From assembly GCF_004321985.1 (NCBI RefSeq), contig NZ_SCQN01000007.1, positions 1 through 53,654 of the forward strand: a stretch of 53,654 bases of DNA, read 5' to 3'. The translations under genes and the position numbers were made by a program. Within the stretch, counting starts at the first letter, position 1. Each line of letters begins with the position of its first letter. Shown piece after piece: positions 34,490 through 48,423 of the stretch. Source of the DNA: Castellaniella sp. GTDB taxonomy: Bacteria; Pseudomonadota; Gammaproteobacteria; Burkholderiales; Burkholderiaceae_B. The notes below the pieces were generated by a model. That model did no database searches, was not told where the DNA came from, and worked only from the letters and a program-made list of their open reading frames with translations.

Positions 34490-35779
34490 ATGAGTCTCAC
34501 TCCTCATATGAGTTCCAACACATCGAGTTCCACCACCCACTATGCGGTGATCGCGGGCGTCAGCGTCGGCCACATGCTGAACGACATCATGCAATCGCTG
34601 ATCGTCACCGTCTACCCGCTGCTCAGCGCGCAGTTTCACCTGAGCTACGTGCAGATCGGACTCATCACGCTGACATTCCAGCTGACGGCATCACTGCTGC
34701 AGCCCCTCGTGGGCGCGGTGACGGACCGATATCCGTTGCCATACGCGACCCTGGTGGGCATGTGCTTCACGCTGACAGGCGTCATCCTTCTGTCGGTGGC
34801 CCCTTCCTATCCCATACTGCTGGCCGCCGTGGCGCTGATCGGCTGCGGCTCTTCCATCTTCCACCCACAGTCGGCGCAGGTCGCCCGCACGGCCGCCGGT
34901 GGGCGCTACGGCCTGGCCCAGTCGCTCTTTCAGATCGGCGGCAATACGGGGCAAGCGCTGGGCCCGATCGTGGCGGGTGCCCTGGTGCTGCAATACGGTC
35001 TGCAGGGGCGCGCGCGCATTGCCTGGTTCACGCTCGCGGCCCTGATCGGGATTGTGATTCTGCTGCAGGTCAGCCGCTGGTACGCACACCACCTTGACCT
35101 ACGCAAATCCAAGCGGCAAGCCGGTGCACGCCGCTACCCCAAGCCGGTCGTGCGGCGGACGATCGGTGTGCTGTTCATCCTGATGGTGTCCAAATTCTTC
35201 TACCTCGCCAGCATCAACAGCTACTACGAGTTCTTTCTCATCCACCGCTTCGGGCTGTCCGACCACAATGCCGCGTATCTGCTGGGGGTGTTTCTTCTGG
35301 CGGTCGCCGGCGGTACGCTGATCGGCGGTCCGCTGGGCGACCGTGTCGGCCGCAAGTGGGTCATCTGGTTCTCGATCCTCGGCTGCGCACCCTTCACGCT
35401 GATGCTGCCCTATGTGGGGCTGGGCTGGACCGTCGCGCTCAGCATCATTATCGGCCTGGTGCTGGCGTCGGCGTACCCGGCCATCATCGTCTACGCACAG
35501 GACATGCTCACACACCGCATTGGCATGATCTCGGGGCTCTTCTACGGATTCAGCTTCGGTCTCGGTGGGCTGGGCGCCGCCTTGTTCGGCGCGGTGGCCG
35601 ATCGTTACGGCATTGATTTCGTCTATCAAATCAGCTCGTTTCTGCCACTGATCGGACTGCTGGCGATGTTCCTGCCAGACGTGCGCCCGCCCACCAGTGA
35701 GGACGCCGATGCGGGCGCGGAAAGGGGTGCGGGCGCAGCCAGCACCGTGCCGCTGGTGAACCCATCGGCGCACGCCTAG
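34490..35779 (+). CDS. fsr: MFS transporter, fosmidomycin-resistance (Fsr) type
   Basis: A 429-residue twelve-helix major-facilitator exporter. Fsr-type features are VSVGHMLNDIMQSLIVTVYP at helix 1, GCGSSIFHPQSAQVARTAAG, and ALFGAVADRYGIDFVYQISS near the C-terminus. Fsr of E. coli exports fosmidomycin; natural substrates are not known. Two starts are possible (34490, 34508), differing by six residues. A polar Ala/Asp/Glu tail follows the last helix. It lies 97 bases after the Kef gene in the same direction. Confidence 0.88.
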   Translation: MSLTPHMSSNTSSSTTHYAVIAGVSVGHMLNDIMQSLIVTVYPLLSAQFHLSYVQIGLITLTFQLTASLLQPLVGAVTDRYPLPYATLVGMCFTLTGVILLSVAPSYPILLAAVALIGCGSSIFHPQSAQVARTAAGGRYGLAQSLFQIGGNTGQALGPIVAGALVLQYGLQGRARIAWFTLAALIGIVILLQVSRWYAHHLDLRKSKRQAGARRYPKPVVRRTIGVLFILMVSKFFYLASINSYYEFFLIHRFGLSDHNAAYLLGVFLLAVAGGTLIGGPLGDRVGRKWVIWFSILGCAPFTLMLPYVGLGWTVALSIIIGLVLASAYPAIIVYAQDMLTHRIGMISGLFYGFSFGLGGLGAALFGAVADRYGIDFVYQISSFLPLIGLLAMFLPDVRPPTSEDADAGAERGAGAASTVPLVNPSAHA

Positions 35780-35840: not shown

Positions 35841-36749
35841 ATGAACTTACGGCAGATCGAGGTGTTCAGGGCCATCATGATAACGGGCTCGGTCAGTGAT
35901 GCCGCCCGCCTGCTGCACGTATCGGTTCCGGCGGTGAGCCGGGTCCTATCCCACGCTGAAAGCCAGCTGGACTTCCCTCTCTTTGAAAGAATCAAGGGGC
36001 GGTTGCATCCCACCGAAGAAGCCCGGCATCTTTACCAGGAAATCGAACAGGTCTACCGAGGCGTGCAACGCATCGACCGCCTGACGCACGAGCTGGCAGA
36101 ACGACGCCACGGAATGCTGAGCATCGTCACCAGCCCCAGCATCGGGCATATTCTGATTCCGCTCGCACTTGCCAGGTTCCACCAGAAACACCCCGAAGTC
36201 CGCATACACTTCCGGTACCTGAGCTACCAGCTACTCAAAGAATACCTGCTCAGCCGCCAATCGGAGATAGGCGTATCGATCCTGCCGGTGGATCACCCCA
36301 ATCTGACCGCGGCGCCCATCGCCAAGGGCCGGCTTCTATGCATCTGTCCGCCGCATCATCCGCTGTCGTCACGAGAATCCATCACTCCCCGGGACCTGGG
36401 GCCATACCCGCTCATCACGTACCCGCCCGACACTCCTTTTGGGGCGCGCATCGAACAGCTGTTCATTAAGTCGCAAGAAACCTTGCAGGTGGCCATGGAA
36501 GTCGGGTCGCCGCAAAACGCCTGCTCACTGGTCGACGCAGGCGCGGGCATCGCGCTGGTGGATGAGTTTTCGCTGCAGGCCTGGCCGAAGGCTAGCTTCG
36601 TCGTCGCACCAGTGTCCAACGCACCAGCCATCATCGCCGATCTCGTCTACCTGAGGACGGAACCGTTGTCTTCTATGGCGACGTCCTTTGTCAAGGAACT
36701 CAACAACGTGCTGGCCGAGCGAGGCCTTGCTCCTCCTGCCGACACTTGA
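35841..36749 (+). CDS. LysR-type transcriptional regulator
   Basis: A 302-residue regulator. Residues 1-60 are the winged helix (MNLRQIEVFRAIMITGSVSD, AARLLHVSVPAVSRVLSHAE), followed by a helical linker and a periplasmic-binding-like effector domain (about 90-295). It faces the 3' end of the eleven-gene catabolic operon (85 bases between coding ends), which is not the usual divergent placement of a LysR for its target, but it is the only regulator adjoining the operon. Its effector is unknown. Confidence 0.92.
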   Translation: MNLRQIEVFRAIMITGSVSDAARLLHVSVPAVSRVLSHAESQLDFPLFERIKGRLHPTEEARHLYQEIEQVYRGVQRIDRLTHELAERRHGMLSIVTSPSIGHILIPLALARFHQKHPEVRIHFRYLSYQLLKEYLLSRQSEIGVSILPVDHPNLTAAPIAKGRLLCICPPHHPLSSRESITPRDLGPYPLITYPPDTPFGARIEQLFIKSQETLQVAMEVGSPQNACSLVDAGAGIALVDEFSLQAWPKASFVVAPVSNAPAIIADLVYLRTEPLSSMATSFVKELNNVLAERGLAPPADT

Positions 36750-36834: not shown

Positions 36835-37779
36835 TCATGCCTGGCTCGGCTCCGACCCATCCCCGGGGACTATGCCAGGTGGCAGGGACTTCACGTGATC
36901 GGCAATCTGGCCGGGCGTCGCCATCCAGATCTCGCCTCGATGCTGGGCAATGTGGTCCATGACCTTGCGGAATTGCCGCAAGCGATAAGGCTGTCCCAGG
37001 ACGAAACTGTGGAGGACGATGCTCATGACGAGCGGCCGAGTTCGCGATTCTTCGAGCATCTCGTCAAACTGGTCGATCAGGTTGTCGCAGAACATCTGGG
37101 ACGGCGTGCGCCGCGACACGCACTCGATGGAATCGTTCAGATCATGCGAGTATGGGATGGATAAGATACGACCATGCTTGGTAGTGAACCATATCGGCTG
37201 ATCATCGATCGGCCAGTCCATCATGTATTCGTATCCATTCTCCTTGAGCAGTTCCAGCGACCGGCTCGTCTGGCATATGTACGGCGCCAGCCACCCCTTG
37301 GGGGACACCCCTTCGTGACTGCGCAGGGTCTCGGTCACCTCCGCGATGCATGCGATCTCTTCCTCTTCAGACATGTCGATCTGCCGTTCGGAGTCGGTGC
37401 GGCCATGCCCCACGATTTCGTGTCCTTTTTCGGAGAAACGCTCGATCAGCCCGGGGCAGTAGGCATACACATCGGAATTCACGAGCAGCCCGTATTTGAA
37501 GCCATAGGCATCGGCCAGGTCAAGCAGCCTCATCGCACCCACCCGGTTCCCATAGTCGCGCCAGCCGAAGCTCCGGATGTTGGGGTGAGGCTGAGAGACT
37601 GCGTAGTCATTGCCCAAACCCGCTCCAAAACGGAAATGCTCGATATTCAAGCTGAGATGTAGGGCGAGACGCTTGCCCTGCGGCCACTCATAAACCGGCC
37701 GATCACTGATGGCGGAATATTGATAGCGCCTGTGAGTATCCACCCGGGTCTTCTGATTCGCAGTCATGATCCTCATCAT
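36835..37779 (-). CDS. Polysaccharide-deacetylase-fold hydrolase (PuuE/imidase-like)
   Basis: A protein of up to 314 residues with a NodB-type fold: LALHLSLNIEHFRFG (strand 1 region), LLVNSDVYAYCPGLIERFSE, the HEIVGHGRTDSERQIDMSEE segment (His-x4-His pair for metal), GWLAPYICQTSRSLELLKEN and LVMSIVLHSFVLGQPYRLRQ. These resemble the cytosolic subgroup containing PuuE-type allantoinase; from memory a bacterial imidase also belongs here. No signal peptide is seen, so action on cell-wall glycans is unlikely. It is the last gene of the hydantoin-type operon, 24 bases after the asparaginase. ATGs at 37776 and 37767 are alternative starts. Confidence 0.78.
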   Translation of the reverse strand: MMRIMTANQKTRVDTHRRYQYSAISDRPVYEWPQGKRLALHLSLNIEHFRFGAGLGNDYAVSQPHPNIRSFGWRDYGNRVGAMRLLDLADAYGFKYGLLVNSDVYAYCPGLIERFSEKGHEIVGHGRTDSERQIDMSEEEEIACIAEVTETLRSHEGVSPKGWLAPYICQTSRSLELLKENGYEYMMDWPIDDQPIWFTTKHGRILSIPYSHDLNDSIECVSRRTPSQMFCDNLIDQFDEMLEESRTRPLVMSIVLHSFVLGQPYRLRQFRKVMDHIAQHRGEIWMATPGQIADHVKSLPPGIVPGDGSEPSQA

Positions 37780-37803
37780 CCATGAAAAATTGTTTTCGGG
37801 AAT

Positions 37804-38766
37804 TCACTCCCCCGACACAAACAACTCGGCGGGCGAAAGCCCGGCTGATAACCCGAATATCAGCCGCAGCCGGGCCTTGACCGCCGACAGGCTGCCGGCG
37901 GACACCAGGCCCGACGCCAACAAATGTATTTCTCCGCCTACTCCCCCGTAGGTTGCCCGAAGGACCTGCGCGCTGGCGCAACGACTGGCCAATACCACGG
38001 CCACCCCCCCTGTCGCCGCCTCTACGAGCGCCTCCGCCAGGGGCGGCGAAACGTGCCCTCCGCCAGCTCCCGCAATGACGAGGCCGTCGACCCGATCCTT
38101 GATCGCATTGACCACGAAGCCATCGGACCCGGCCGCGAACCAGAGCAGCTCGACCCGCTTGCAGGGGGCTACGGGACTGGGCAAACGATCCGAAAGCAGC
38201 GGACCGAAGAAGGGCACCGCCCTGCCCTCTATAACCATCCCGACGGGGCCGGCCGGAGGCGAGCCGAACGCAGCCACTCGGGTGCTGTGAACCTTAGCCA
38301 CCCAGCGGGCAAGGTGAATTTCATCCTGATGGACGACGACCGGCCCGTAAGCCGAGAACCGGGGCGTCGCGGCAACTGCGACGGCAGCCGCCAGGTTGGC
38401 GGGGCCATCCTCACCTGGAGAACCAGGCACCCGCATCGCACCGGTCAGGACGACCGGCACCGGGGTTCGTACCAGAAGGGACAGCGCATAGGCAGTTTCT
38501 TCAAGGGTGTCGGTGCCATGTGTGATCACGACTCCGTCGGAGCCGCCTCGGATCTCCTCCTCGACCGCACATGCCAGATCCCACATGCTTGCCGGCGTCA
38601 TGCTGCGGCTGGACAACCGCGACACATTCCGTGCGGAGATCAGGACCTCCCCGCCCGACTGCCGCGCGACAGCCGCCAGGACCTCCGCATCCAGCGCGGG
38701 GACCGCGCCGGTCCCGCTCTGCTTCGTGGAGATCGTCCCCCCCGTGGCGAGAAGGCTAATCCGCAT
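37804..38766 (-). CDS. Asparaginase family protein (type I/II, L-asparaginase fold)
   Basis: A 320-residue member of the AnsA/AnsB family. The first nucleophile Thr11 is in LLATGGTIS; Thr85-Asp86 lie in ITHGTDTLEETA; the conserved Lys follows in ARWVAKVHSTRVAAFGSP. No signal peptide, so cytosolic. In this operon it may hydrolyse a half-amide or acyl amide made by the imidase/hydantoinase rather than asparagine itself. It overlaps the MmgE/PrpD gene by 11 bases. Confidence 0.88.
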   Translation of the reverse strand: MRISLLATGGTISTKQSGTGAVPALDAEVLAAVARQSGGEVLISARNVSRLSSRSMTPASMWDLACAVEEEIRGGSDGVVITHGTDTLEETAYALSLLVRTPVPVVLTGAMRVPGSPGEDGPANLAAAVAVAATPRFSAYGPVVVHQDEIHLARWVAKVHSTRVAAFGSPPAGPVGMVIEGRAVPFFGPLLSDRLPSPVAPCKRVELLWFAAGSDGFVVNAIKDRVDGLVIAGAGGGHVSPPLAEALVEAATGGVAVVLASRCASAQVLRATYGGVGGEIHLLASGLVSAGSLSAVKARLRLIFGLSAGLSPAELFVSGE

Positions 38767-40093
38767 GGCTGCCCGCCTCCTGAAACAGGCGGGAACAATC
38801 CGGAACCCGGGACAAGTCGGCCAGCCGGTCCCACCAGGCCTTCGCCAGTGAATTGTCGTCGACGAGTTCGAAGAACTTTTGCCTGACCTCGGCCTCGGTC
38901 AGAGGATCGAGATAATGCCCATGGGGATTGTCGACCTGCGCCGTATAGGTTCTACCGCCCGAAGCGAGCACGGTAATGCGCGCCGGCGAGGCATCCGGCC
39001 ACTTTGCTTCCAGATCGTCGGTGACCTGCACGTCGATGCGTTCGGCAAGCTGCGCCGTCTCTGGCTCGAAGTGGAAGCTGTCCGCCCCCATCCCGCGACG
39101 CAGCACGGCGGCAGCCACCACGTACGGCAATGAGAACCGCGCAGACAAGTCATTGGGTTCCGCCTGTCGGTTGAGCTTCATGTTGTTGCTCACGGTTTCC
39201 ACCTGGATGCGCTCTATGTGCGCCAGATCGATCAGCGGTAATTTTCTGACGGCGTCGACGGCAGCATGGCTAAGGGCGCAGGCGCTATGCATCTTGAAGT
39301 AATTCCGGGTCACGCCCAACACCGAATAATCCAGCGGAGCCACCAGCGCATCGCGATCGACCAAGGTGCCCGCCAGCTTCCCGAACGACAGTTCCAGGCT
39401 GGTAGGCGAGCCGGTAAAGCCCGCCTCGGCGAGCGTCGACGATCTCACCGCCAACTCGGCGGCGGCACCCATCCAGGTATTCCTGGCCGTTGCACCTTCG
39501 AAGCAGGCGTCCCAGATCGACAGGATCGGGCTCGTCGCCGCAATCCGGGCCGCCTCAATGGGATCCCTGTCCAGCACCATGGCGACGGCGACGGCGCCGC
39601 CGACCGCCCCGAAGTGCCCGTGCGGATGCGTGGGATACGTGAGGCGGTACGCTGTGAACAATCGCGCGGTCACCTCATACCCCGCGATCACCGCGCGCAG
39701 CAGCGTCTGTCCATGGGCTTTTTCCGCTTCCGCCACCGCCACCGCCGGAATCACGACCTGCATCCCGGGGTGCCCGGTGGGGCGCATTCCCTCATCGAGC
39801 TCGACGAAGCTTCCCGCCGTGGCATTCAGGAATGCCGCCCATTCCGGGTCCGCCCGGACCATGGAGGGGCTGAACACGGTGGCGCCATAGCGCGGCCCTT
39901 CCGCCGTCCTCCCCCGATTGCGTTCGAGGCCACTCAGGCGAACCATCGGTTCCTGGCGCGCACCGGCGCGGCTGACCCCGATCGTATCCGCAATGATGTG
40001 TCCGGCACGCTTGAGCGACGCGTCCGGAACGCGAGCCAGATTGACGCCCGCCGCAATACTGACCGCCTGATCCAAAAGTGAAATGACCGACAC
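38756..40093 (-). CDS. MmgE/PrpD family protein
   Basis: A 445-residue protein of the 2-methylcitrate dehydratase/iminodisuccinate epimerase superfamily. ADTIGVSRAG, AGSFVELDEGMRPTGHPGMQ, AVIAGYEVTARLFTAYRLTY and THPHGHFGAVGGA are family features. Members dehydrate or epimerise small polar acids; the reaction here is unknown. I chose a GTG start (40093) because AGGGAGG lies five bases upstream; ATGs at 40108 and 40111 have no ribosome site. It overlaps the asparaginase gene and is 48 bases after livF. Confidence 0.85.
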   Translation of the reverse strand: MSVISLLDQAVSIAAGVNLARVPDASLKRAGHIIADTIGVSRAGARQEPMVRLSGLERNRGRTAEGPRYGATVFSPSMVRADPEWAAFLNATAGSFVELDEGMRPTGHPGMQVVIPAVAVAEAEKAHGQTLLRAVIAGYEVTARLFTAYRLTYPTHPHGHFGAVGGAVAVAMVLDRDPIEAARIAATSPILSIWDACFEGATARNTWMGAAAELAVRSSTLAEAGFTGSPTSLELSFGKLAGTLVDRDALVAPLDYSVLGVTRNYFKMHSACALSHAAVDAVRKLPLIDLAHIERIQVETVSNNMKLNRQAEPNDLSARFSLPYVVAAAVLRRGMGADSFHFEPETAQLAERIDVQVTDDLEAKWPDASPARITVLASGGRTYTAQVDNPHGHYLDPLTEAEVRQKFFELVDDNSLAKAWWDRLADLSRVPDCSRLFQEAGSHAD

Positions 40094-40098
40094 GCCAA

Positions 40099-40105
40099 CC
40101 TCCCT
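40099..40105 (-). promoter_or_regulatory. Ribosome binding site deciding the MmgE/PrpD start
   Basis: AGGGAGG on the minus strand, five bases before the GTG at 40093. The in-frame ATGs at 40108 and 40111 lie upstream of or over this site and have none of their own. Confidence 0.65.
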
Positions 40106-40141
40106 CATCATCAAGAAACCCAGCCACCCCGGAAGTGCGCT

Positions 40142-40849
40142 TCAAATCCCCAGATAGGCGCGCCTGATCTCCTCCTTGTTGCGAAGTTCCTCAGACAGCC
40201 CGCTCAGGATGATCCTGCCCCGCTCCATCACATAGGCCCGTGTGGAATACTTCAGTGCCGAGGTCGTGTTCTGTTCGACCAGAAGCACGCTGGTCCCCAG
40301 CTTGTGGACCTGCTTGAGCTGTTCATACATCTCGTTGACCAGCTTCGGCGCCAGGCCCTGTGACGGTTCGTCGAGCATGATCAGTTTCGGTCCCAGCATC
40401 AGCGCCCGTCCTACGGCAACCATTTGCTGCTCACCCCCCGACAGCGTGCCCGCCAACTGCGAGGAGCGCTCCTTGAGCCGCGGGAACAAGTCGTAGATCA
40501 GGCTCAACCTTTGCGACCGCTGATCATGATCCTTGACCAGCCAGGCCCCGATCATGAGATTGTCGAACACGCTCAGGCCGGGGAATATCTGCCGGCCCTC
40601 CGGGACGTGCGCGATTCTGCATTCGGGAATCTTGTGTGCAGGCATCTTCGTGAGCAGGTTGCCGTCAAATGAAATCGTTCCTCCGAAGACCTGCACCGTG
40701 CCGGAAATCGCCTTCAGGAGCGTCGACTTCCCGGCTCCGTTCGCGCCCACCACCGCCACGTAATCGCCGTCCTCGACCTTGAGGGAAATGCCATGCAGGG
40801 CTTCGATCTTTCCATAGCCAGCGTGCAACTCATTGATCTCCAGGCCCAT
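40142..40849 (-). CDS. livF: Branched-chain-amino-acid-type ABC transporter, ATP-binding protein LivF
   Basis: A 235-residue ATPase: Walker A GANGAGKSTLL, signature LSGGEQQMVAVGRALM, Walker B LIMLDEPSQGL, His-loop region VLLVEQNTTSALKYS, as in LivF (VEQN is the LivF form). All motifs are intact. It abuts livG (TGAATG). Together with the other Liv genes it forms one importer. Confidence 0.93.
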   Translation of the reverse strand: MGLEINELHAGYGKIEALHGISLKVEDGDYVAVVGANGAGKSTLLKAISGTVQVFGGTISFDGNLLTKMPAHKIPECRIAHVPEGRQIFPGLSVFDNLMIGAWLVKDHDQRSQRLSLIYDLFPRLKERSSQLAGTLSGGEQQMVAVGRALMLGPKLIMLDEPSQGLAPKLVNEMYEQLKQVHKLGTSVLLVEQNTTSALKYSTRAYVMERGRIILSGLSEELRNKEEIRRAYLGI

Positions 40850-41572
40850 TCACTCCACTCCCAGGTAAGCTTCAATCACCTGCTTATGGCGGCTCACCTC
40901 TTCAGGTTTGCCCACCGTCAGGACCGAACCGTAGTCAAGCGCAAGGATCCGCGATGAAATTTTCATCAACGCGCGCATATTGTGCTCGATGACCATCAGG
41001 CTCACGCCGCGTTCCCGGTTGATGCGCACCAGCCTGTCCAGAATGTCGTCCACCTCGATTTCGTTCAGGCCTGCCATGACTTCATCAACCAGGAGCACCT
41101 GGGGATGCAGCATCATGGCGCGCGCCAATTCCAGCAAGGACCGCTGGGCCAGGGGGAGATCCTGGGCCAAGGTGTCGGCATGCCCTTCCAACCCCCAGAA
41201 CTCGAGCTCTTCCTGCGCCGCCGCACGAGCTGCGGACACGGATTTCGCGGTCAGCAATGCCGCTACCGCCACGTTATCCCGCGCCGTCATTTCACCGAAT
41301 ACCTGAACGCTTTGCGAGGTCTTGGCGATACCCAGCTCCGCAATCCGATGGGTGGGCAGCCCGACGATATTCCTGTCCCTGAACCAGATGGCGCCGGAGA
41401 CCGGCGGCACCAGGCTGACGATCGCATTGAACAACGTCGACTTTCCAGCGCCATTCGGTCCGATGATGCCCAGAATCTCGCCCTCGATCAGTTCGAAGCT
41501 CACTCGTTTCAGGGCGTGCAGGCCGGAGAAGCGCTGGTCGACGTTCTCCACCTTGAGGATGGGCTGACTCAT
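40850..41572 (-). CDS. livG: Branched-chain-amino-acid-type ABC transporter, ATP-binding protein LivG
   Basis: A 240-residue ATPase: Walker A GPNGAGKSTLF, Walker B VLLVDEVMAGLN and His-loop VIEHNMRALM, all LivG-like. The signature is atypical: LPLAQRSLLELARAM replaces the usual LSYGQQRRLEIARAL, and Pro after the catalytic Glu is Val. Activity is still expected, as LivG variants differ here. Its start overlaps the livM stop by four bases. Confidence 0.9.
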   Translation of the reverse strand: MSQPILKVENVDQRFSGLHALKRVSFELIEGEILGIIGPNGAGKSTLFNAIVSLVPPVSGAIWFRDRNIVGLPTHRIAELGIAKTSQSVQVFGEMTARDNVAVAALLTAKSVSAARAAAQEELEFWGLEGHADTLAQDLPLAQRSLLELARAMMLHPQVLLVDEVMAGLNEIEVDDILDRLVRINRERGVSLMVIEHNMRALMKISSRILALDYGSVLTVGKPEEVSRHKQVIEAYLGVE

Positions 41573-42573
41573 TTCTCCACCCTCCGTTCAAGACGCTGGA
41601 ATCCCGCATGAAGCAAGCCTCCCAGGCCCCGCGGCTGAAAGATGACCAGCAAGAGAAGAATGACCCCATACGCCAGCGGCCCCAACGCTGCCAGATTGCC
41701 GCTCAACTGCAGCGAGGCATATTCGTTGATCGGAATCAGAATGGCCGCTCCAAGCAACGGCCCCCACCAGAACTGCAACCCACCCACGATGGCAAACAGC
41801 ACCAGATTCAACGTGGTGTCCCAGGAAAACGCCGTACGCGGATCGACATACTGAAGAAAGGCGCCGTACAAAGAGCCTGCGACGGCAACAATGGCGGCAC
41901 TGATGAGCAACGTCGTCATCTTCGACTGGAACTGGTTTACACCAGCCAGAGTAGAGGCCTCCGGATTCGACCGGATGGCGGCCAGGCGCATCCCCAGCGC
42001 CGAGAAGCGGACCATCCGCGCAATCACCAGCGCAACGACCAGAAAGACTGCCGCCACGTAGAAGAAAGGCTCCGGCGTATCGAACTGGAGCGTCGACAAC
42101 CCGGATGGGAGGATTGGGACGGAGATCCCTCTAGCGCCACCCGTCAAGCTGTCCCAGCCACTGGCGATCAGTTCGGATACGGGTAGAAGCGCCAGCGTGG
42201 CAAGGGCGAAATAGTGGCCGGACAACTGAAAGCTCGGCCACCCGATCAGCGCGGCGACCACAATCGACAACACCACCGCCACCGGAATGGCGAGCCAGGG
42301 GCTGAAGTGCAATGAGGACTGGAAGATCGCAACGGTATACATCCCGATTCCGAAGAACGTGATGTGGCCGAGCGAGATCTGATTCGCATAGCCGCCGAGA
42401 AGATTCCAGCCGACGGATGCGCCACCCAGCAGGCAGACGAGCACGGCGAGTCTCAGGTCGTATTCGCTGGTCAGATACACCGGAACCGTGAACAGGACGG
42501 CAAGGAGGACGATCCATCCGATGACTGCCGGAATACGGGAATTCACGGTACGAGTAGTCATATGCGTAGCCAT
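41569..42573 (-). CDS. livM: Branched-chain-amino-acid-type ABC transporter permease LivM
   Basis: A 334-residue integral membrane protein with about nine to ten helices. GWNLLGGYANQISLGHITFF and GMRLAAIRSNPEASTLAGVN (the cytosolic coupling loop) are characteristic of LivM. The ATG shares one base with the livH stop (TGATG); a second ATG (42561) is in frame. Confidence 0.92.
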   Translation of the reverse strand: MATHMTTRTVNSRIPAVIGWIVLLAVLFTVPVYLTSEYDLRLAVLVCLLGGASVGWNLLGGYANQISLGHITFFGIGMYTVAIFQSSLHFSPWLAIPVAVVLSIVVAALIGWPSFQLSGHYFALATLALLPVSELIASGWDSLTGGARGISVPILPSGLSTLQFDTPEPFFYVAAVFLVVALVIARMVRFSALGMRLAAIRSNPEASTLAGVNQFQSKMTTLLISAAIVAVAGSLYGAFLQYVDPRTAFSWDTTLNLVLFAIVGGLQFWWGPLLGAAILIPINEYASLQLSGNLAALGPLAYGVILLLLVIFQPRGLGGLLHAGFQRLERRVEK

Positions 42574-43454
42574 CAGCGTTGCCCCCCGCGACGAATGCGC
42601 TGCAGCACACCCCCCGGAATGAGCACCAGGGCAAAGAAGAACACGACAAACACCGGAAGATTCTGGATCTCGATCGGCAACACCAAGGTCGACATCGACT
42701 GGATCACCCCCACCACCAGGCCTGCAATGATGGCCCCTCGGACTGAACCCAACCCGCCCAGAACGACGACAGTGAACATGATGAGAATGAACTGCTGGCC
42801 TATGTACGGGTAAGTCAGCGTGTATGGCAATATCACGGCCCCCGCTATCATGGTCAATGCGGAACCTATTCCGAAGGCGAGCATGTACATCCAGCGAGGA
42901 TTGATACCCATCAACTGAACCGCTGACCGGTTCTGGGATGTGGCGCGCATGGCCTTCCCGTAGCGGGTCTTGTTCAGGAACAGGCTCAAAACGATCGCCA
43001 TGATCAACGCACAAACGGCCGCATACACGAAGCTGGCTGAGAACGACAGGCCCAACACATTGAAAGTCTGGCTCTGGTAGGACGTGGTCACGCTGAGAAA
43101 ATTGTTCCCGGCGATGAGGGCGACCCCATTGGCCAGCACCAGGCCCAGGCCGACCGTCGCAATGATCTGGGCGGACTGCGGCGCCTTGATGATGGGCTCT
43201 ATGACCAGGCGCTCACTGAGCATGCCGAACAGAAAGCCGACGACTCCGACGAGCGGAGCAACGGTGAGCGGGTCGAGTTGCAGAAACTTGCTCAAGAAAT
43301 AGGCGGCCATCATGCCTATCATCAGATACTCGCCTTGGGCGAAATTGACGATATTCATGACACCGAACATGAGCGTCAATCCGACCGAGATCAGCCCATA
43401 GACGCTTCCTATGAGGACCCCGTTCGCAACGGACTGCAAGATGAGATGCAGCAT
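42573..43454 (-). CDS. livH: Branched-chain-amino-acid-type ABC transporter permease LivH
   Basis: A 293-residue permease: GVLIGSVYGLISVGLTLMFG, VNFAQGEYLMIGMMAAYF, KTRYGKAMRATSQNRSAVQL and the coupling loop are LivH features. It lies 137 bases after livK, separated by repeated and hairpin sequences, and continues into livM. Confidence 0.92.
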   Translation of the reverse strand: MLHLILQSVANGVLIGSVYGLISVGLTLMFGVMNIVNFAQGEYLMIGMMAAYFLSKFLQLDPLTVAPLVGVVGFLFGMLSERLVIEPIIKAPQSAQIIATVGLGLVLANGVALIAGNNFLSVTTSYQSQTFNVLGLSFSASFVYAAVCALIMAIVLSLFLNKTRYGKAMRATSQNRSAVQLMGINPRWMYMLAFGIGSALTMIAGAVILPYTLTYPYIGQQFILIMFTVVVLGGLGSVRGAIIAGLVVGVIQSMSTLVLPIEIQNLPVFVVFFFALVLIPGGVLQRIRRGGQR

Positions 43455-43493
43455 ATCTTCTGGTTATCCTATGGTCGAACCTTCGACAATCGG

Positions 43494-43569
43494 CGATGAA
43501 TTTCGGCGATGAATCTCGTCTCTATTCATCGAGGCGGTCCCGCCGGGGCCCGATCGAGCAGCCCGGCGG
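43494..43569. repeat. Repeat cluster and hairpins between livK and livH
   Basis: The octamer CGATGAAT occurs at 43494-43501 and 43507-43514, and in inverted form (ATTCATCG) at 43524-43531, so the second and third copies form a perfect 8-base hairpin. A second perfect hairpin with arms CCGCCGGG (43540-43547) and CCCGGCGG (43562-43569) lies between it and the livK end. Placed after a binding-protein gene, such hairpins often protect the upstream mRNA and raise its level over the permease genes. Confidence 0.7.
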
Positions 43570-43591
43570 ATGACAGACCGATCGTGCGGAC

Positions 43592-44851
43592 TCAGTTCTT
43601 CGCGGCCGCTGGCCACTCAGGCTTGCCCTTGACCAGATTTCCCGGCCAGACCCCGACAAGCTTTTCGTTCTGCCACTGCACCATCAACGGCGCTGCATGG
43701 ATGTTGACGCCGGACGCATCGAATTCGACCACACCCCCGGGCATGGACCCCGCGGCGCTCCGGTTGAACTTGCCCTTGTGAAGGGTCTGGGCCAGTTCAA
43801 CCGGATTGGTCGTCGGATGCTCTTCCAGGGCCTGGGCAATCACGAATACGGCGGCTGCGTTGTCATGCGCCTCCTGGGGCATGAACATGCCGTATTTCTT
43901 CTGATAGGCTTCACCAATGGCGCCGTAATCATCCGGATTGGAAGTCGTGACGCTGAATACCCCATTTACCGTCGAACCCAGCACCTTCAGGAAATCCGGA
44001 GTCACGTACCCTCCTGTTCCACCGAACATCGGCAGGGTGCTGCCCGATGACTTCAAGGCGCGCATCAGCAACACGCCGTCGGTGACATAAGCAATGGAGA
44101 AAACGCTGTCCGCCCCCGAAGCCTTGATTTTGGCGACGACAGGATTCGCGTCGGTAATCTCGGGGGAATAGCCTTCGTACAGTGCGACATCGACACCGCT
44201 TTCCTGAGCCTGTTTCTTCAGAGCTGCGGCCTGGCTCGCACCGTACGCGTTATTCGCATACACGATGGCGACCTTCTTGAGCGGATGGCCATTGGCCTTT
44301 GCTACCTCCGAGGCATAGCGGAACTGGGCCGTGCCCATCTTCGACGCTGCGGCCGGCAGCTGGAAGAAGAATTTATAGCCCTGGTGGGTCAGGGTATCCG
44401 CGAACGATGTACTGAGCAGCGGGATTCGCGCCCGTTCCGTCACGCGCGCAATCGTCTCCGTGAGCCCGCTGGCATAGGCCCCGACCATGGCCAAGGGCTT
44501 TTTATTCTTGGAGAGGAAGTTGATCGCCGCGGACGCCGCCTTGGCCGGATCGCTGGTCGCATCGGCAACCGTCAGTTCCAGCTTCGCGCCGCCCATCGAC
44601 TTGATGCCGCCAGCCGCATTGATTTCTTCCACCGCCAGCTGGATCCCGCGAAGCGAGTTCTCGCCGTTCTGTGCGGTGGCCCCGGTAAGCGGCAAGATCG
44701 TCCCGAGGGTAATGCTTTTCGCTTGGGCCGAGCTACTCGCAGCCACGCTGGCAGCCGAATAGCCCATCAGCCCGGCCATGGCTACGATACTGGCCGCCGC
44801 AATTTTCAGCCTGTGCCCAAAATCGTCATACGTTCCGAATCTGGTTGTCAT
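43592..44851 (-). CDS. livK: Branched-chain-amino-acid-type ABC transporter substrate-binding protein LivK
   Basis: A 419-residue periplasmic binding protein. After a signal peptide (about 1-41, cut near VAA-SSSAQ), a type I binding fold follows: ITLGTILPLTGATAQNGENS, AVEEINAAGGIK, and later VAIVYANNAYGASQAAALKK. Substrate selectivity in this family cannot be told from sequence; here the neighbours suggest a cyclic ureide, imide or related N-acyl amino acid. AAGGAG eight bases before the ATG supports the start. Confidence 0.92.
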   Translation of the reverse strand: MTTRFGTYDDFGHRLKIAAASIVAMAGLMGYSAASVAASSSAQAKSITLGTILPLTGATAQNGENSLRGIQLAVEEINAAGGIKSMGGAKLELTVADATSDPAKAASAAINFLSKNKKPLAMVGAYASGLTETIARVTERARIPLLSTSFADTLTHQGYKFFFQLPAAASKMGTAQFRYASEVAKANGHPLKKVAIVYANNAYGASQAAALKKQAQESGVDVALYEGYSPEITDANPVVAKIKASGADSVFSIAYVTDGVLLMRALKSSGSTLPMFGGTGGYVTPDFLKVLGSTVNGVFSVTTSNPDDYGAIGEAYQKKYGMFMPQEAHDNAAAVFVIAQALEEHPTTNPVELAQTLHKGKFNRSAAGSMPGGVVEFDASGVNIHAAPLMVQWQNEKLVGVWPGNLVKGKPEWPAAAKN

Positions 44852-44959
44852 GATCCTGTCTCCTTTTTCATGCGAAAACCATCTTGATTGGATTGAATGC
44901 AATACTGCAATTTCCGCCGAGCCTCGATCGGCACATGTCGGCCGCTCGTGTACCGCAGG

Positions 44960-45916
44960 TCAGTGCGACAGCCGGATTCCCAGGCCCCGCTTCCGAGCCT
45001 GTTCTACGACGGCTGCGCCACACACGAGATCCTGCACGGCCAGCCCCTGGGATTCGAAAATGGTAATTTCGTCGCTGCGCAAACGACCCGGCATCCTGCC
45101 CAGGAGCAAGTCGCCCAGGGCCCCGATCCGAGACACATCCCACTGGTTCACAAGAAGATCACCGCACTCCTTCGCGGCCACCTCGAGGTCGTCGACGAGG
45201 ACCAGGCCGGCTCGTTCGAGAACCTCCTTGCCGATTTCTCTTTTTTTCGGATCATTCGACCCGATAGCATTGATATGCGTGCCGGGCCGCAACCACTCCG
45301 CCTCGAACAAAGGCGTCGCGCTATTGGTCGCCGTCACGATGACGTCGGCGGAGGATGCCGCCGACTTCGAATCGGCCGGCGAAAACCGCACACCGCCATG
45401 AGTGTCTGCCAGCCGCTGGATGAATGCATCCCGCCGCTGAGGATCCCGCCCCACCACCCGGACATCGGCAATCGTCGTCACAGAGTCCAGCAAGGCCCTG
45501 ACCTGGTATTCGGCCTGGAAGCCAGTCCCATAGACGGAAAGCACGACGGGATTCTCGTTGGCCATTGCACGGGTGGCAATCACCGTGGCCGCACCAGTAC
45601 GTATCTGACCCAGGCGATTCGCCTCCAGGAGCGCCACCATCTCGCCCGTCCCCATCGAATACAACATCAGTGCGAGAGCCGCTCCTCGGGTCACGCCGCG
45701 CCCCGCGGTCACGTAACTTTTGACGCCCATCATCCCGATGGCGGGCGCGCATGCCCACATGATGTTCATGACGGAGGAATCAGCAGCCATCCGCACCCTG
45801 ACCGCATTCGTCGCTTCGCCGCGCGCCAGGCTACGAAACGCCGCATCCACGCAGCGGACCGCTTCCGCAATGGACAACTGGCTCGCAACCACCTCGTCGT
45901 TCAGGTAAACCGCCAT
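44960..45916 (-). CDS. Ornithine cyclodeaminase / mu-crystallin family protein
   Basis: A 318-residue NAD(P)-dependent protein. MGVKSYVTAGRGVTRGAALA, LEANRLGQIRTGAATVIATR and VLSVYGTGFQAEYQVRALLD (Rossmann) are family motifs; SVYGTGFQAEYQ has Tyr and Thr where GAGAQA is usual. Members include ornithine cyclodeaminase, alanine dehydrogenase and ketimine reductases. In this operon it is more likely an amino-acid dehydrogenase or imine reductase acting on the released amino acid than a true ornithine enzyme. Confidence 0.85.
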   Translation of the reverse strand: MAVYLNDEVVASQLSIAEAVRCVDAAFRSLARGEATNAVRVRMAADSSVMNIMWACAPAIGMMGVKSYVTAGRGVTRGAALALMLYSMGTGEMVALLEANRLGQIRTGAATVIATRAMANENPVVLSVYGTGFQAEYQVRALLDSVTTIADVRVVGRDPQRRDAFIQRLADTHGGVRFSPADSKSAASSADVIVTATNSATPLFEAEWLRPGTHINAIGSNDPKKREIGKEVLERAGLVLVDDLEVAAKECGDLLVNQWDVSRIGALGDLLLGRMPGRLRSDEITIFESQGLAVQDLVCGAAVVEQARKRGLGIRLSH

Positions 45917-45984
45917 TCCACGACCCTCGTTCAGAGAGATACTGCACGAATGGGACAACACGAAAATTCGGAAAGCACGCCGCC

Positions 45985-47466
45985 TCAGGCGCTTTTGTCG
46001 CTGGCCAACGCCCTCGCCACCAGACCGGCCGGCCGCCGCGACGCGCCGGCACGGGGCTGGGGCCACTCAAAGCGCGGCGACCCTCGGCGCAAGTATTGGC
46101 CACTTCCTCGTTCGGCATGCAACACATTGTTCTCGACGACTACCCGCCCGCGAGAGACAACGACCTCTGGCCACCCCTTGATGACACGGCCCTCATAAGG
46201 CGTATAGCCGACTTCGTCATGAAGATCCGCATGCGCGATGCGGGTTTCCCGGTCAGGGTTCCAAATAGCAAGATCCGCGTCGGCGCCTATCGCGATCCGT
46301 CCTTTTCTGGGAGCGAGCCCATACAGATCCGCGTGATTCGAAGCGGTCAACCGGACAAACTGGTGAATGTCCATCCTGCCCTTGAGCACGCCCTCGCTGA
46401 ACAGAAGCGGCATGCGCAGTTCCAGCCCGGGAACGCCATTGGCCATGTCCTTGAAGGTCGTCTGTTCACCTTTCGGAAGCTTGCCGGTTTTGTCGAACCG
46501 ATACGGCGCATGATCAGATGAATACGTCTGCAAGGTGCCGTCCAGGAATCCCTGCCAGACTGATTCTTGAGATCCAGCATCGCGCGGCGGCGGCGAACAG
46601 CAGAACTTGGCGCCTTCCAGGCCGGCGCGGTCCAGATCCTCCGCCGTCAGGAACAGGTATTGGGGGCAGCTTTCCGCCAGCACGTGCGCCCCCAGATGGC
46701 GGGCGCCGCGAATCAGCTCGACGGTGTCGCCGCCGGCGACGTGCACGATGAGAATCGGCGCATCGAGAAGCCGCGAGAACGTGATGGCGCGATTCGCAGC
46801 CTCGGCTTCGGCCAGCGGGTCGTGCGCCACTGCGTGAAACTTTGGCGCGGTGTGTCCCCGTTCGAGCAGACGCTTCGCCAGCCACTTGATGATGTCGTTG
46901 TTCTCCGCGTGCACCATGACGAGCGCCCCCTGCTCGCGAGCCAATTCCAGCACATCCAGCAACTGGTAGTCGTCGAGCTTCAGGCTGTCATAAGTCATGT
47001 AGACCTTGAGTGACGAAATCCCGCCCCGGATGGCGTCGGGCAAATCGCGGGCCAGGGTCGGCTCGTCGGGATTGGCCAGAATGAGGTGGAACCCGTAATC
47101 GATGACAGCCTTGGTGCGCGCACGCTCGGCATAGTCACGGACGACCTCGGGGATGGACGTGCCGCGGTGCTGCGCCGCAAACGGGATGATAGTGGTGGTG
47201 CCGCCGAACGCCGCCGACACGGTCGCCGAGTAAAAATCGTCGGCGCTCATCACCCCCATTCCAGAGAGTTGCTCCACATGGCAATGGCTGTCGATTCCTC
47301 CGGGCAGCACCCACCGGCCGGCGGCATCGACGTCTCGCGTGCCAGGCGGCAGCTTCGCGGCGATGGCCGCAATACGGCCATCGCGTATTCCAACATCGCC
47401 CTCAATGATCGCGTCGTCGGTCACGATGCGCCCGCGGCGGACAGTCAGATCGAAGCCTTGTTCCAT
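45985..47466 (-). CDS. Dihydropyrimidinase / hydantoinase family amidohydrolase
   Basis: A 493-residue binuclear zinc amidohydrolase that opens hydantoin or dihydropyrimidine rings to N-carbamoyl amino acids. The ligands are present: His61 and His63 in GGIDSHCHVEQ, Lys154 (to be carboxylated) in SSLKVYMTYD, His186 in VHAENN, His242 in IVHVAGGD and Asp318 in YSSDHAPY. The DSHCHVEQ form is seen in dihydropyrimidinase-like enzymes. It lies 21 bases after the D-carbamoylase gene, so the two make the classical two-step hydantoinase pair. The ATG was chosen over a TTG five codons upstream. Confidence 0.92.
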   Translation of the reverse strand: MEQGFDLTVRRGRIVTDDAIIEGDVGIRDGRIAAIAAKLPPGTRDVDAAGRWVLPGGIDSHCHVEQLSGMGVMSADDFYSATVSAAFGGTTTIIPFAAQHRGTSIPEVVRDYAERARTKAVIDYGFHLILANPDEPTLARDLPDAIRGGISSLKVYMTYDSLKLDDYQLLDVLELAREQGALVMVHAENNDIIKWLAKRLLERGHTAPKFHAVAHDPLAEAEAANRAITFSRLLDAPILIVHVAGGDTVELIRGARHLGAHVLAESCPQYLFLTAEDLDRAGLEGAKFCCSPPPRDAGSQESVWQGFLDGTLQTYSSDHAPYRFDKTGKLPKGEQTTFKDMANGVPGLELRMPLLFSEGVLKGRMDIHQFVRLTASNHADLYGLAPRKGRIAIGADADLAIWNPDRETRIAHADLHDEVGYTPYEGRVIKGWPEVVVSRGRVVVENNVLHAERGSGQYLRRGSPRFEWPQPRAGASRRPAGLVARALASDKSA

Positions 47467-47487
47467 GAGTGCGTATCCCAAAAACCG

Positions 47488-48423
47488 CTACGGCAGAGGT
47501 TCGCCCGCCCCGACGCGATCCACGATGAGCCGATAAAATTCAGGCCGACGATGCTTGGCGAAATTGAATACGTGCTTGCGAAAATTCTCGCCAATCCGCA
47601 AATCGGCCTTGACCACGATCACCTCGTCGTCCTCAGTCAGGGCGCGGGCGACCAATTCACCGGTAGGCGCAACGATGACCGAACTGCCTATCATGTGGAA
47701 CCCGTCTTCAGAGCCGCACTTGGCGGCCGCGGCAACCCACAACGCATTCTGGTAGGCATTGGCCTGCAGCGAGATGAGGTGCGTGGTCGTGCGAAGATGG
47801 ACTGGCTCGTTCCAGTGAATATTGACCGAGGGCGTGTTGTAGCCCAGGACGACAATCTCGGCGCTTTGCAATGACAGGACCCTATAGGTTTCAGGCCAAC
47901 GCCTGTCGTTGCACAGGCACATGCCGAAACGCGTATCGTGCAAGTCGAATACCCGAAAACCGAGATCTCCCACCTCGAAATACTTCTTTTCCAGATGCTG
48001 GAACGGCGCCTCCAGCTTGTGGTCGGAATGGCCCGGCAAATGTATTTTGCGGTACTTGCCGATGATGTTCCCAGTTTTATCGACCAGAATGGAGGTATTG
48101 AAACGCCGGCCTTCGGGCGTGAGCTCGGCGTAGCCCAGATAAAAACCCAACCCGAGTTTTTTCGCTTCGTCGAAAAGTGGCTGGACCCGCGGATTCGGCA
48201 TGGTTTTCTCAAAAAACCTGTCCAGCTCACCCTCGTCTTCCATCCAGTAGCGTGGAAAAAAGGTGGTCAGGGCAAGTTCGGGAAATACAACGACTTCCGC
48301 GCCACGGCTTTTTGCCTCGCGCAACATTTCCAATAACCGGCGCACCACGGCCTCACGCGAATCCGCCAGATTTACTGGTCCCATCTGAGCGACGGCCAGT
48401 CCTATCGCGCGATTGCTATTCAT
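47488..48423 (-). CDS. N-carbamoyl-D-amino-acid hydrolase (nitrilase superfamily)
   Basis: A 311-residue nitrilase-fold amidohydrolase that turns N-carbamoyl-D-amino acids into D-amino acids, CO2 and ammonia. It closely resembles the Agrobacterium enzyme as I remember it: FPELALTTFFPRYW, GYAEL, RFNTSILVDKTGNIIGKYRK, KIHLPGH and CNDRRWPE. The catalytic triad is Glu49, Lys126 and Cys171. It is the first gene of the eleven-gene run. D-specificity is an inference from family resemblance. Confidence 0.9.
   Translation of the reverse strand: MNSNRAIGLAVAQMGPVNLADSREAVVRRLLEMLREAKSRGAEVVVFPELALTTFFPRYWMEDEGELDRFFEKTMPNPRVQPLFDEAKKLGLGFYLGYAELTPEGRRFNTSILVDKTGNIIGKYRKIHLPGHSDHKLEAPFQHLEKKYFEVGDLGFRVFDLHDTRFGMCLCNDRRWPETYRVLSLQSAEIVVLGYNTPSVNIHWNEPVHLRTTTHLISLQANAYQNALWVAAAAKCGSEDGFHMIGSSVIVAPTGELVARALTEDDEVIVVKADLRIGENFRKHVFNFAKHRRPEFYRLIVDRVGAGEPLP

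Follow-up and report, generated by a model that had tools for sequence, protein, structure and literature searches.

A rare twelve-gene island of Castellaniella sp. with a probable role in the uptake and ring opening of cyclic ureides and/or imides

In the hydantoin-utilisation (hyu) clusters of Aminobacter DSM24754 and Ketogulonicigenium vulgare the gene for N-carbamoyl-D-amino-acid hydrolase (D-carbamoylase) lies upstream of the hydantoinase gene on the same strand, an order which a passage from 2012 calls unusual, with K. vulgare among its examples (PMC3546935); a review presents the hydantoinase process as hydantoinase plus carbamoylase, complemented by a racemase (PMC7431475). The same order opens a run of eleven open reading frames (ORFs), all on the minus strand from 48423 down to 36835 (Table 1), in the stretch of Castellaniella sp. 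DNA analysed here, which comprises 53,654 nucleotides (positions 1 to 53,654 of contig NZ_SCQN01000007.1, assembly GCF_004321985.1) and is referred to below as the window. Unlike the hyu clusters, this run contains no racemase gene and combines the two hydrolases with a LIV-type ABC transporter, an ornithine-cyclodeaminase (OCD) family protein, an MmgE/PrpD family protein, an asparaginase-fold amidase and a NodB-fold hydrolase; with a convergent LysR gene as twelfth member it forms a discrete island. This island is most likely catabolic, with a NodB/amidase arm added to a set of the hydantoin-utilisation kind, and we consider it reasonably probable that it is a LysR-linked set which imports cyclic ureides and/or imides through the transporter and opens their rings by two unrelated hydrolases.

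Systems related to the second arm have been described elsewhere. For Aspergillus nidulans, excerpts of one report present HxnM as 64% identical to a cyclic imide hydrolase (CIH) homolog of P. putida and structurally close to HpPgdA, and propose that it opens 3-hydroxypiperidine-2,6-dione during nicotinate use, after which the amidase HxnN frees ammonia (PMC9304392). The fungal route resembles the island in that a NodB-fold-related cyclic imidase is followed by an ammonia-releasing amide hydrolase, but it differs in its substrate route, in the fold of its amidase and in having no hydantoinase. PuuE allantoinase shares the NodB fold and the metal-less E/H/Q pattern of the island protein, which, however, scores far below the cut-off of the PuuE model TIGR03212 (106.2 versus 424.6 bits), and no uric-acid gene is among the twelve. 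A plasmid operon of Sulfitobacter sp. SK012 is like the island in that a NodB gene overlaps the D-carbamoylase gene and is followed by the hydantoinase gene, with an ABC importer upstream, but the importer is of another type, a racemase is present, and no MmgE/PrpD, asparaginase or OCD gene is annotated; this locus (L189; NZ_CP025805.1, 6947-12215) looks like a simpler relative, in which racemase, NodB, D-carbamoylase and hydA genes are accompanied by another gene carrying the name polysaccharide deacetylase. The parts of the island are familiar, whereas their combination is apparently new, without being a new kind of system. The first-pass annotation of this DNA knew of no described operon with the full set, and we likewise found no description of it in open-licence papers, which were looked at mostly by listing.

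All twelve genes have full-length counterparts in the same order in another genome of the genus (G006), compared over about 58 kb around its locus; the LysR genes are 80% identical and the eleven operon genes 71-90%, with 87% for the D-carbamoylase. Of the window's 40 other called genes, 39 are without a match in that region at E 1e-10, and the last one matches the LivF region partially, at 29%. The LysR gene occupies the same place beside the block in both species, whose flanks differ, and the MFS genes adjoining LysR in the two genomes are dissimilar. Because these twelve genes and no other full-length gene of the window are common to both genomes amid different flanks, the block is a discrete island, and since G006 retains all eleven operon genes but not the flanks, their order goes beyond chance. 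The eleven-gene extent originally proposed thus holds as a conserved core in two species, to which the convergent LysR gene has to be added. An empty island site was not found in other members of the genus; copCD genes (in G002 and G009) and a 73% identical MFS gene (in G005) occur there in other surroundings. It is possible, if doubtful, that the locus is instead a plain hyu-type pathway from hydantoins or dihydropyrimidines to D-amino acids, enlarged by a transporter and three enzymes that are unrelated to it, and that the second half serves some other nutrient, for example an amide or a branched dicarboxylate. The occurrence of all twelve genes together in a second species and in a different context speaks against such an accretion; evidence in its favour comes from the loci of other genomes described below.

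As a whole the block is rare. LivK was matched in 2/10 genomes of the genus (E 1e-60), in 2/268 genomes of the family (E 1e-120) and in 2/399 genomes of an even sample of the order (1e-100), the last two being the Castellaniella genome itself and one with a 43% paralog. The asparaginase was matched at 1e-55 in one of the 399 genomes, again its own, which also has a 44% paralog, and the MmgE protein at 1e-55 in its own genome alone among 398 sampled from the phylum. These searches scored only the top 4 to 6 candidates per genome when more existed, so misses are possible. By way of these three proteins the full set was looked for elsewhere, and it is known from G006 besides the window.

The organisation of the run is compatible with joint expression. 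All eleven ORFs of the first-pass annotation are present and co-directional, and their families agree with Pfam and NCBIfam; the Pfam scan covered ten of the eleven proteins, LivF was scanned with NCBIfam only, and the NCBIfam scan did not include LivM. From the first to the last gene the intergenic gaps are 21, 68, 108, 137, 11, -4, 0, 30, -11 and 24 bases, the fifth becoming -1 with the likelier LivM start at 42573, which overlaps the LivH stop as TGATG (the alternative automated start is 42561). Between positions 34500 and 51500, consensus promoter matches (4 versus 4.5 expected) and terminator matches (14 versus 11.9 expected) are at chance level, and apart from one weak match between LivF and MmgE no terminator-like match falls into a gap of the run; on this basis the eleven genes are likely to form a single transcript. 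The G+C content of the operon (58-66% in 2-kb steps) mostly lies slightly below the values in the window's left part, a weak sign that would fit acquisition, and no tRNA genes were found in the window.

Table 1. Genes of the island in the window, in operon order followed by the convergent regulator
Gene product	Position	Strand	Family matches and remarks
N-carbamoyl-D-amino-acid hydrolase (D-carbamoylase), first gene	47488..48423	-	CN_hydrolase; phmmer 1fo6 E 3e-110
D-hydantoinase/dihydropyrimidinase	45985..47466	-	NF009941, TIGR02033; motifs HCHVE, SLKV, VHAEN, VHVAG, SSDH
Ornithine-cyclodeaminase/mu-crystallin family protein (OCD; imine reductase or amino-acid dehydrogenase like)	44960..45916	-	PF02423 181 bits
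LivK-like periplasmic binding protein	43592..44848	-	PF13458 (Peripla_BP_6)
LivH-like permease	42573..43454	-	PF02653 (BPD_transp_2)
LivM-like permease	41569..42573	-	PF02653 (BPD_transp_2); start MATHMTTR
LivG-like ATPase	40850..41572	-	Pfam and NCBIfam ABC ATPase matches
LivF-like ATPase	40142..40849	-	NCBIfam
MmgE/PrpD family protein	38756..40111	-	PF03972+PF19305; true start may be slightly later
Asparaginase-fold amidase	37804..38766	-	PF00710+PF17763
NodB-fold hydrolase, putative PuuE/imidase branch	36835..37779	-	PF01522 (Polysacc_deac_1)
LysR regulator, convergent	35841..36749	+	PF03466+PF00126

The first two enzymes are, judged by their sequences, close to characterised ones with their catalytic motifs kept. 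The D-carbamoylase aligns best among PDB entries with 1fo6 and retains the stretches VFPEL, KYRKIH and CNDRRWPE, which we take to hold the catalytic E, K and C. The hydantoinase exceeds the cut-offs of NF009941 (750 versus 647 bits) and TIGR02033 (520 versus 393), and its five motifs in Table 1 presumably have metal-site roles. A 54% identical hydantoinase paralog lies at a contig edge of the same genome (G000:C57:2-1294), with one TGA counted inside the match.

Pairs of D-carbamoylase and hydantoinase are common; at E 1e-60 the D-carbamoylase was found in 49 plasmid records. Of 183 loci from named genomes, the 80 best were retained, with D-carbamoylases 66-82% identical to that of the island, and 60 of these 80 carry a hydantoinase at an identity of at least 55%. 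An Asp/Glu/hydantoin racemase-type gene accompanies it in 49 of these 60 (two gene clusters assigned through tested representatives, some loci being cut by contig ends), and among all 80 a LysR-type cluster is present in 49 and an SBP_bac_3 cluster in 37; cluster 0, which merges the D-carbamoylase with transporter genes, was left out of the counts. The D-carbamoylase precedes the hydantoinase within 2 kb in eight of the best 80 loci (L017-L019, L021, L024, L035, L036, L038), the reverse order being commoner; it also comes first in a Variovorax plasmid. The other companions of the island are scarce in the same 80 loci (E 1e-20, 60% length): OCD was not matched in any, LIV-type genes in three (L045, L057, L075; 27-30%), the asparaginase in one (L023, 36%), NodB in two (L073, 69%; L095, 29%) and MmgE in one (L073, 30%), with MmgE/PrpD genes of L031 and L032 (28%) below threshold. 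That D-carbamoylase/hydantoinase pairs occur with other transporters, and that the modules clearly recombine, favours an appended transporter and second half. Two loci with such a D-carbamoylase (L087, L095) belong to metagenome-assembled genome records titled Klebsiella pneumoniae and Bordetella parapertussis, titles which look doubtful, and on Rhizobium, Martelella and Neorhizobium plasmids (L194, L195, L197) the gene is followed by genes for an XRE regulator, an adenine-deaminase C-terminal domain protein and alanine racemase.

The NodB-fold protein is the second candidate ring opener. Its nearest PDB relatives are PuuE-type; 1z7a has the same LNxE and HG......Q pattern, and 3cl6 has the second part, the sole part inside its alignment. 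In a hand-picked set of 20 aligned relatives E44, H122, E128 and Q130 do not vary, and of the HpPgdA HGYSH stretch the second histidine is missing. The protein thus looks like a member of the small-ring branch with a PuuE-like, metal-less motif. According to an excerpt of the structural literature, HpPgdA and PuuE both have small closed pockets, and HpPgdA binds metal and is inactive on allantoin (PMC3084791); because HpPgdA, the comparator of HxnM, is a metal binder, the metal-less feature fits PuuE better than the HxnM/CIH type. Another excerpt calls allantoinases once annotated as polysaccharide deacetylases metal independent (PMC9863593).

NodB proteins of this type stand beside hydantoinase and D-carbamoylase genes in three other lineages. 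In L073 the NodB gene (69% identical, without a Pfam match at 1e-6) adjoins an AS-family amidase gene and is divergent to a DHDPS-family gene, a hydantoinase and a D-carbamoylase, with MmgE two genes further; in a genome of another family (G272, locus L140) an MmgE-NodB pair is one gene away from divergent hydantoinase (68%) and D-carbamoylase (65%) genes; and in the Sulfitobacter plasmid operon the NodB protein is 46% identical. Cyclic ureides or imides, the substrate class of the first-pass annotation, appear sound because the NodB protein is small-ring-like and recurs in these neighbourhoods, a recurrence that also argues against an incidental second half. Seven of eight plasmid loci drawn from the 20 best matches have an amide or cyclic-amide hydrolase in the vicinity of NodB, a count without background control: an amidase in H21-H24, D-carbamoylase with hydA in H26, a ring-opening amidohydrolase in H27 and acetamidases with hydA in H29, none being annotated near NodB in H25. 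The protein might alternatively be a polysaccharide or peptidoglycan deacetylase present by coincidence, as its PF01522 label and database names such as 'polysaccharide deacetylase' would have it, but given the PuuE-type nearest structures, the absent second metal histidine beside invariant E44, H122 and Q130, and the frequent amide-hydrolase neighbours, we rejected the polysaccharide deacetylase role and regard this explanation as very improbable. Among 17 loci fetched around NodB matches (L137-L145, L147-L154; L145 and L152, without a NodB call, were left out), relatives at 62-64% (L147-L151, L153) have as neighbours a gene resembling ketopantoate reductase and a divergent block of transglutaminase, ATP-grasp and Alpha-E type (family tests covered L148), which lends little support for ureides.

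The asparaginase-fold protein matches the fold in Pfam and remains below the NCBIfam cut-offs for type II (155 versus 314) and type I (131 versus 260.5) asparaginases. The GGTI and HGTDT motifs are retained, as is a lysine, and R stands where 6rue has Q. Because this Q helps asparaginases to hold the amino-acid end of the substrate, its replacement makes it plausible that the island protein acts on another substrate, although P occupies this position in 9d91, the best PDB match, which likewise bears the name asparaginase.

The Liv proteins likewise fall below all their NCBIfam cut-offs (LivK 106/477, LivH 112/379, LivG 191/362, LivF 238/441), and since the same holds for the asparaginase, PuuE and OCD models, these subfamily names apply at the level of the fold only. 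In LivK the motif GGTGG, shared with G006, stands against GGEG in 4n0q and SGDG in 3ip5, so that T takes the place of an acid (E or D). In LIV binding proteins this acidic residue binds the ammonium group of the ligand. The exchange, as far as a motif can indicate, speaks against plain leucine uptake, tempered by the best PDB match 8wch, a probable Leu/Ile/Val-binding protein that also lacks the acid. It also bears on an unlikely alternative, in which the island would use N-acyl or N-carbamoyl D-amino acids or D-amino-acid amides from cell-wall or peptide debris, D-carbamoylase, hydantoinase and asparaginase deblocking them and OCD oxidising the product. Other D-carbamoylase loci do carry alanine racemase (three) or D-amino-acid transaminase with D-aminoacylase (one), but this explanation sits poorly with a LivK without the acid of the two LIV-type chains and leaves the NodB protein with its small-ring motif and the MmgE/PrpD protein unexplained. 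A second livKHMGF operon of the same genome (L106; G000:C1, 9358-19737) is separated by about 4.5 kb from a further MmgE/PrpD gene.

The OCD protein has 1omo, an alanine dehydrogenase, as its best PDB match (E 1e-39); no NCBIfam equivalog exceeded its cut-off, and the PHROGs scan gave no match. In the MmgE protein both Pfam domains are over their cut-offs, and its relatives are cis-aconitate decarboxylase and, more weakly, iminodisuccinate epimerase. It keeps two histidines and the equivalent of Lys272 of cis-aconitate decarboxylase and has R for Lys207 and K for Tyr318 (numbering matched by hand), three positions which we assume to be further residues of that enzyme; its full residue set is not present. 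The two histidines of the decarboxylase, His103 and His159, are given in an excerpt of PMC7347537. As a putative distant relative of iminodisuccinate epimerase, the protein might replace the racemase as an epimerase if one compound passed through all the enzymes and were opened twice, having a ureide as well as an imide or amide group, for instance a cyclised and racemised aspartate or asparagine derivative; we consider this variant improbable.

ABC transporter genes run into an MmgE/PrpD gene in 4/4 plasmid loci around MmgE matches (four of the 20 matches listed), as they do in the island. These haloarchaeal and alphaproteobacterial operons, from two haloarchaea, Tistrella and Neorhizobium, have transporters annotated as branched-chain type in three cases; in Tistrella two ATPase genes precede an MmgE that is not the matched copy. 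Unlike the island, all four have no annotated D-carbamoylase, asparaginase or NodB within 7 kb, although Tistrella has an amidase and racemases and Neorhizobium HyuA/HyuB. Such liv-MmgE blocks, three of them without annotated hydA or D-carbamoylase within 7 kb, are what separately assembled modules would predict.

MmgE and NodB genes are directly adjacent in eight other genomes (L137-L144), with an overlap of 4-7 bases in seven. The eight MmgE proteins form one clade and therefore count as one event; the MmgE of the window is excluded from it and forms its own deep branch, in a part of the tree that is weak (82/88). A single inherited MmgE-NodB pair was rejected on this tree, and the adjacency arose at least twice. 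In L138, L139, L143 and L144 the pair is preceded by an AS amidase, an SDR, a TctC-type binding protein and a PhyH-family dioxygenase (families tested in L138), which looks like another uncharacterised degradation operon.

We return to the reading of the island as an importer and degrader of cyclic ureides and/or imides. The ring compound would be taken up by LivKHMGF. In the ureide arm, hydantoinase would form an N-carbamoyl amino acid, which the D-carbamoylase would convert to a D-amino acid, CO2 and ammonia; in the imide arm, the NodB-fold enzyme would turn a cyclic imide (or else another type of ureide) into a half-amide by opening the ring, and the asparaginase-fold amidase would split this into ammonia and a dicarboxylic acid. 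A link between the amino acid and an imino or oxo acid could be provided by the OCD-family protein, MmgE/PrpD could epimerise, hydrate or dehydrate the acid, and LysR would control the island. Gene content, behaviour as an island, kept catalytic motifs and recurrent neighbourhoods are the direct observations on which this scheme builds. The first-pass annotation had seen a complete uptake and degradation system; this is partly supported, in that one conserved block, the motifs and the substrate class agree with it, whereas completeness of the system, a path for one substrate, and the OCD and MmgE/PrpD steps go beyond the evidence.

Several findings weigh against the scheme. Its activities are predicted from sequence, as are the substrate, the choice between one and several substrates, the single transcript and control by LysR. 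Comparative support for the whole set is thin because it is known in 2 genomes only. Hydantoin racemase (PF01177) was not found in the ten Pfam-scanned operon proteins and is not expected in LivF, the PF01177 matches of this genome lying on other contigs. The other 11/11 plasmid D-carbamoylase or hydA loci have no annotated NodB, MmgE/PrpD or asparaginase gene within 8 kb, in an incomplete gene table, which again favours appended modules. Hydantoinase of this type is present in 12 of 14 genomes searched and lies away from NodB in 9 of these 12, adjoining it only in the window, G006 and G272. The asparaginase occupies the place of an AS-family amidase in other NodB loci, so its pairing with NodB holds only by analogy. 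The clade of NodB-adjacent MmgE proteins excludes that of the window, and with 27 matches in G040 and 28 in G047 the family is a very common one, so the adjacency may partly be chance. Finally, the weak terminator-like match (minus strand, 40133-40119; 5 pairs, 3 G-C) is located inside the 30-base gap between LivF and MmgE.

If the proposed reading is correct, the island would represent a compact gene set that couples a metal-dependent amidohydrolase and metal-less ring opening by a NodB-fold enzyme to one dedicated importer. It would assign testable roles to two large groups whose functions are poorly assigned, NodB proteins currently labelled 'polysaccharide deacetylase' and MmgE/PrpD proteins encoded beside LIV-type transporters, and would be a source of new D-carbamoylases, hydantoinases and imidases for the production of D-amino acids and half-amides.

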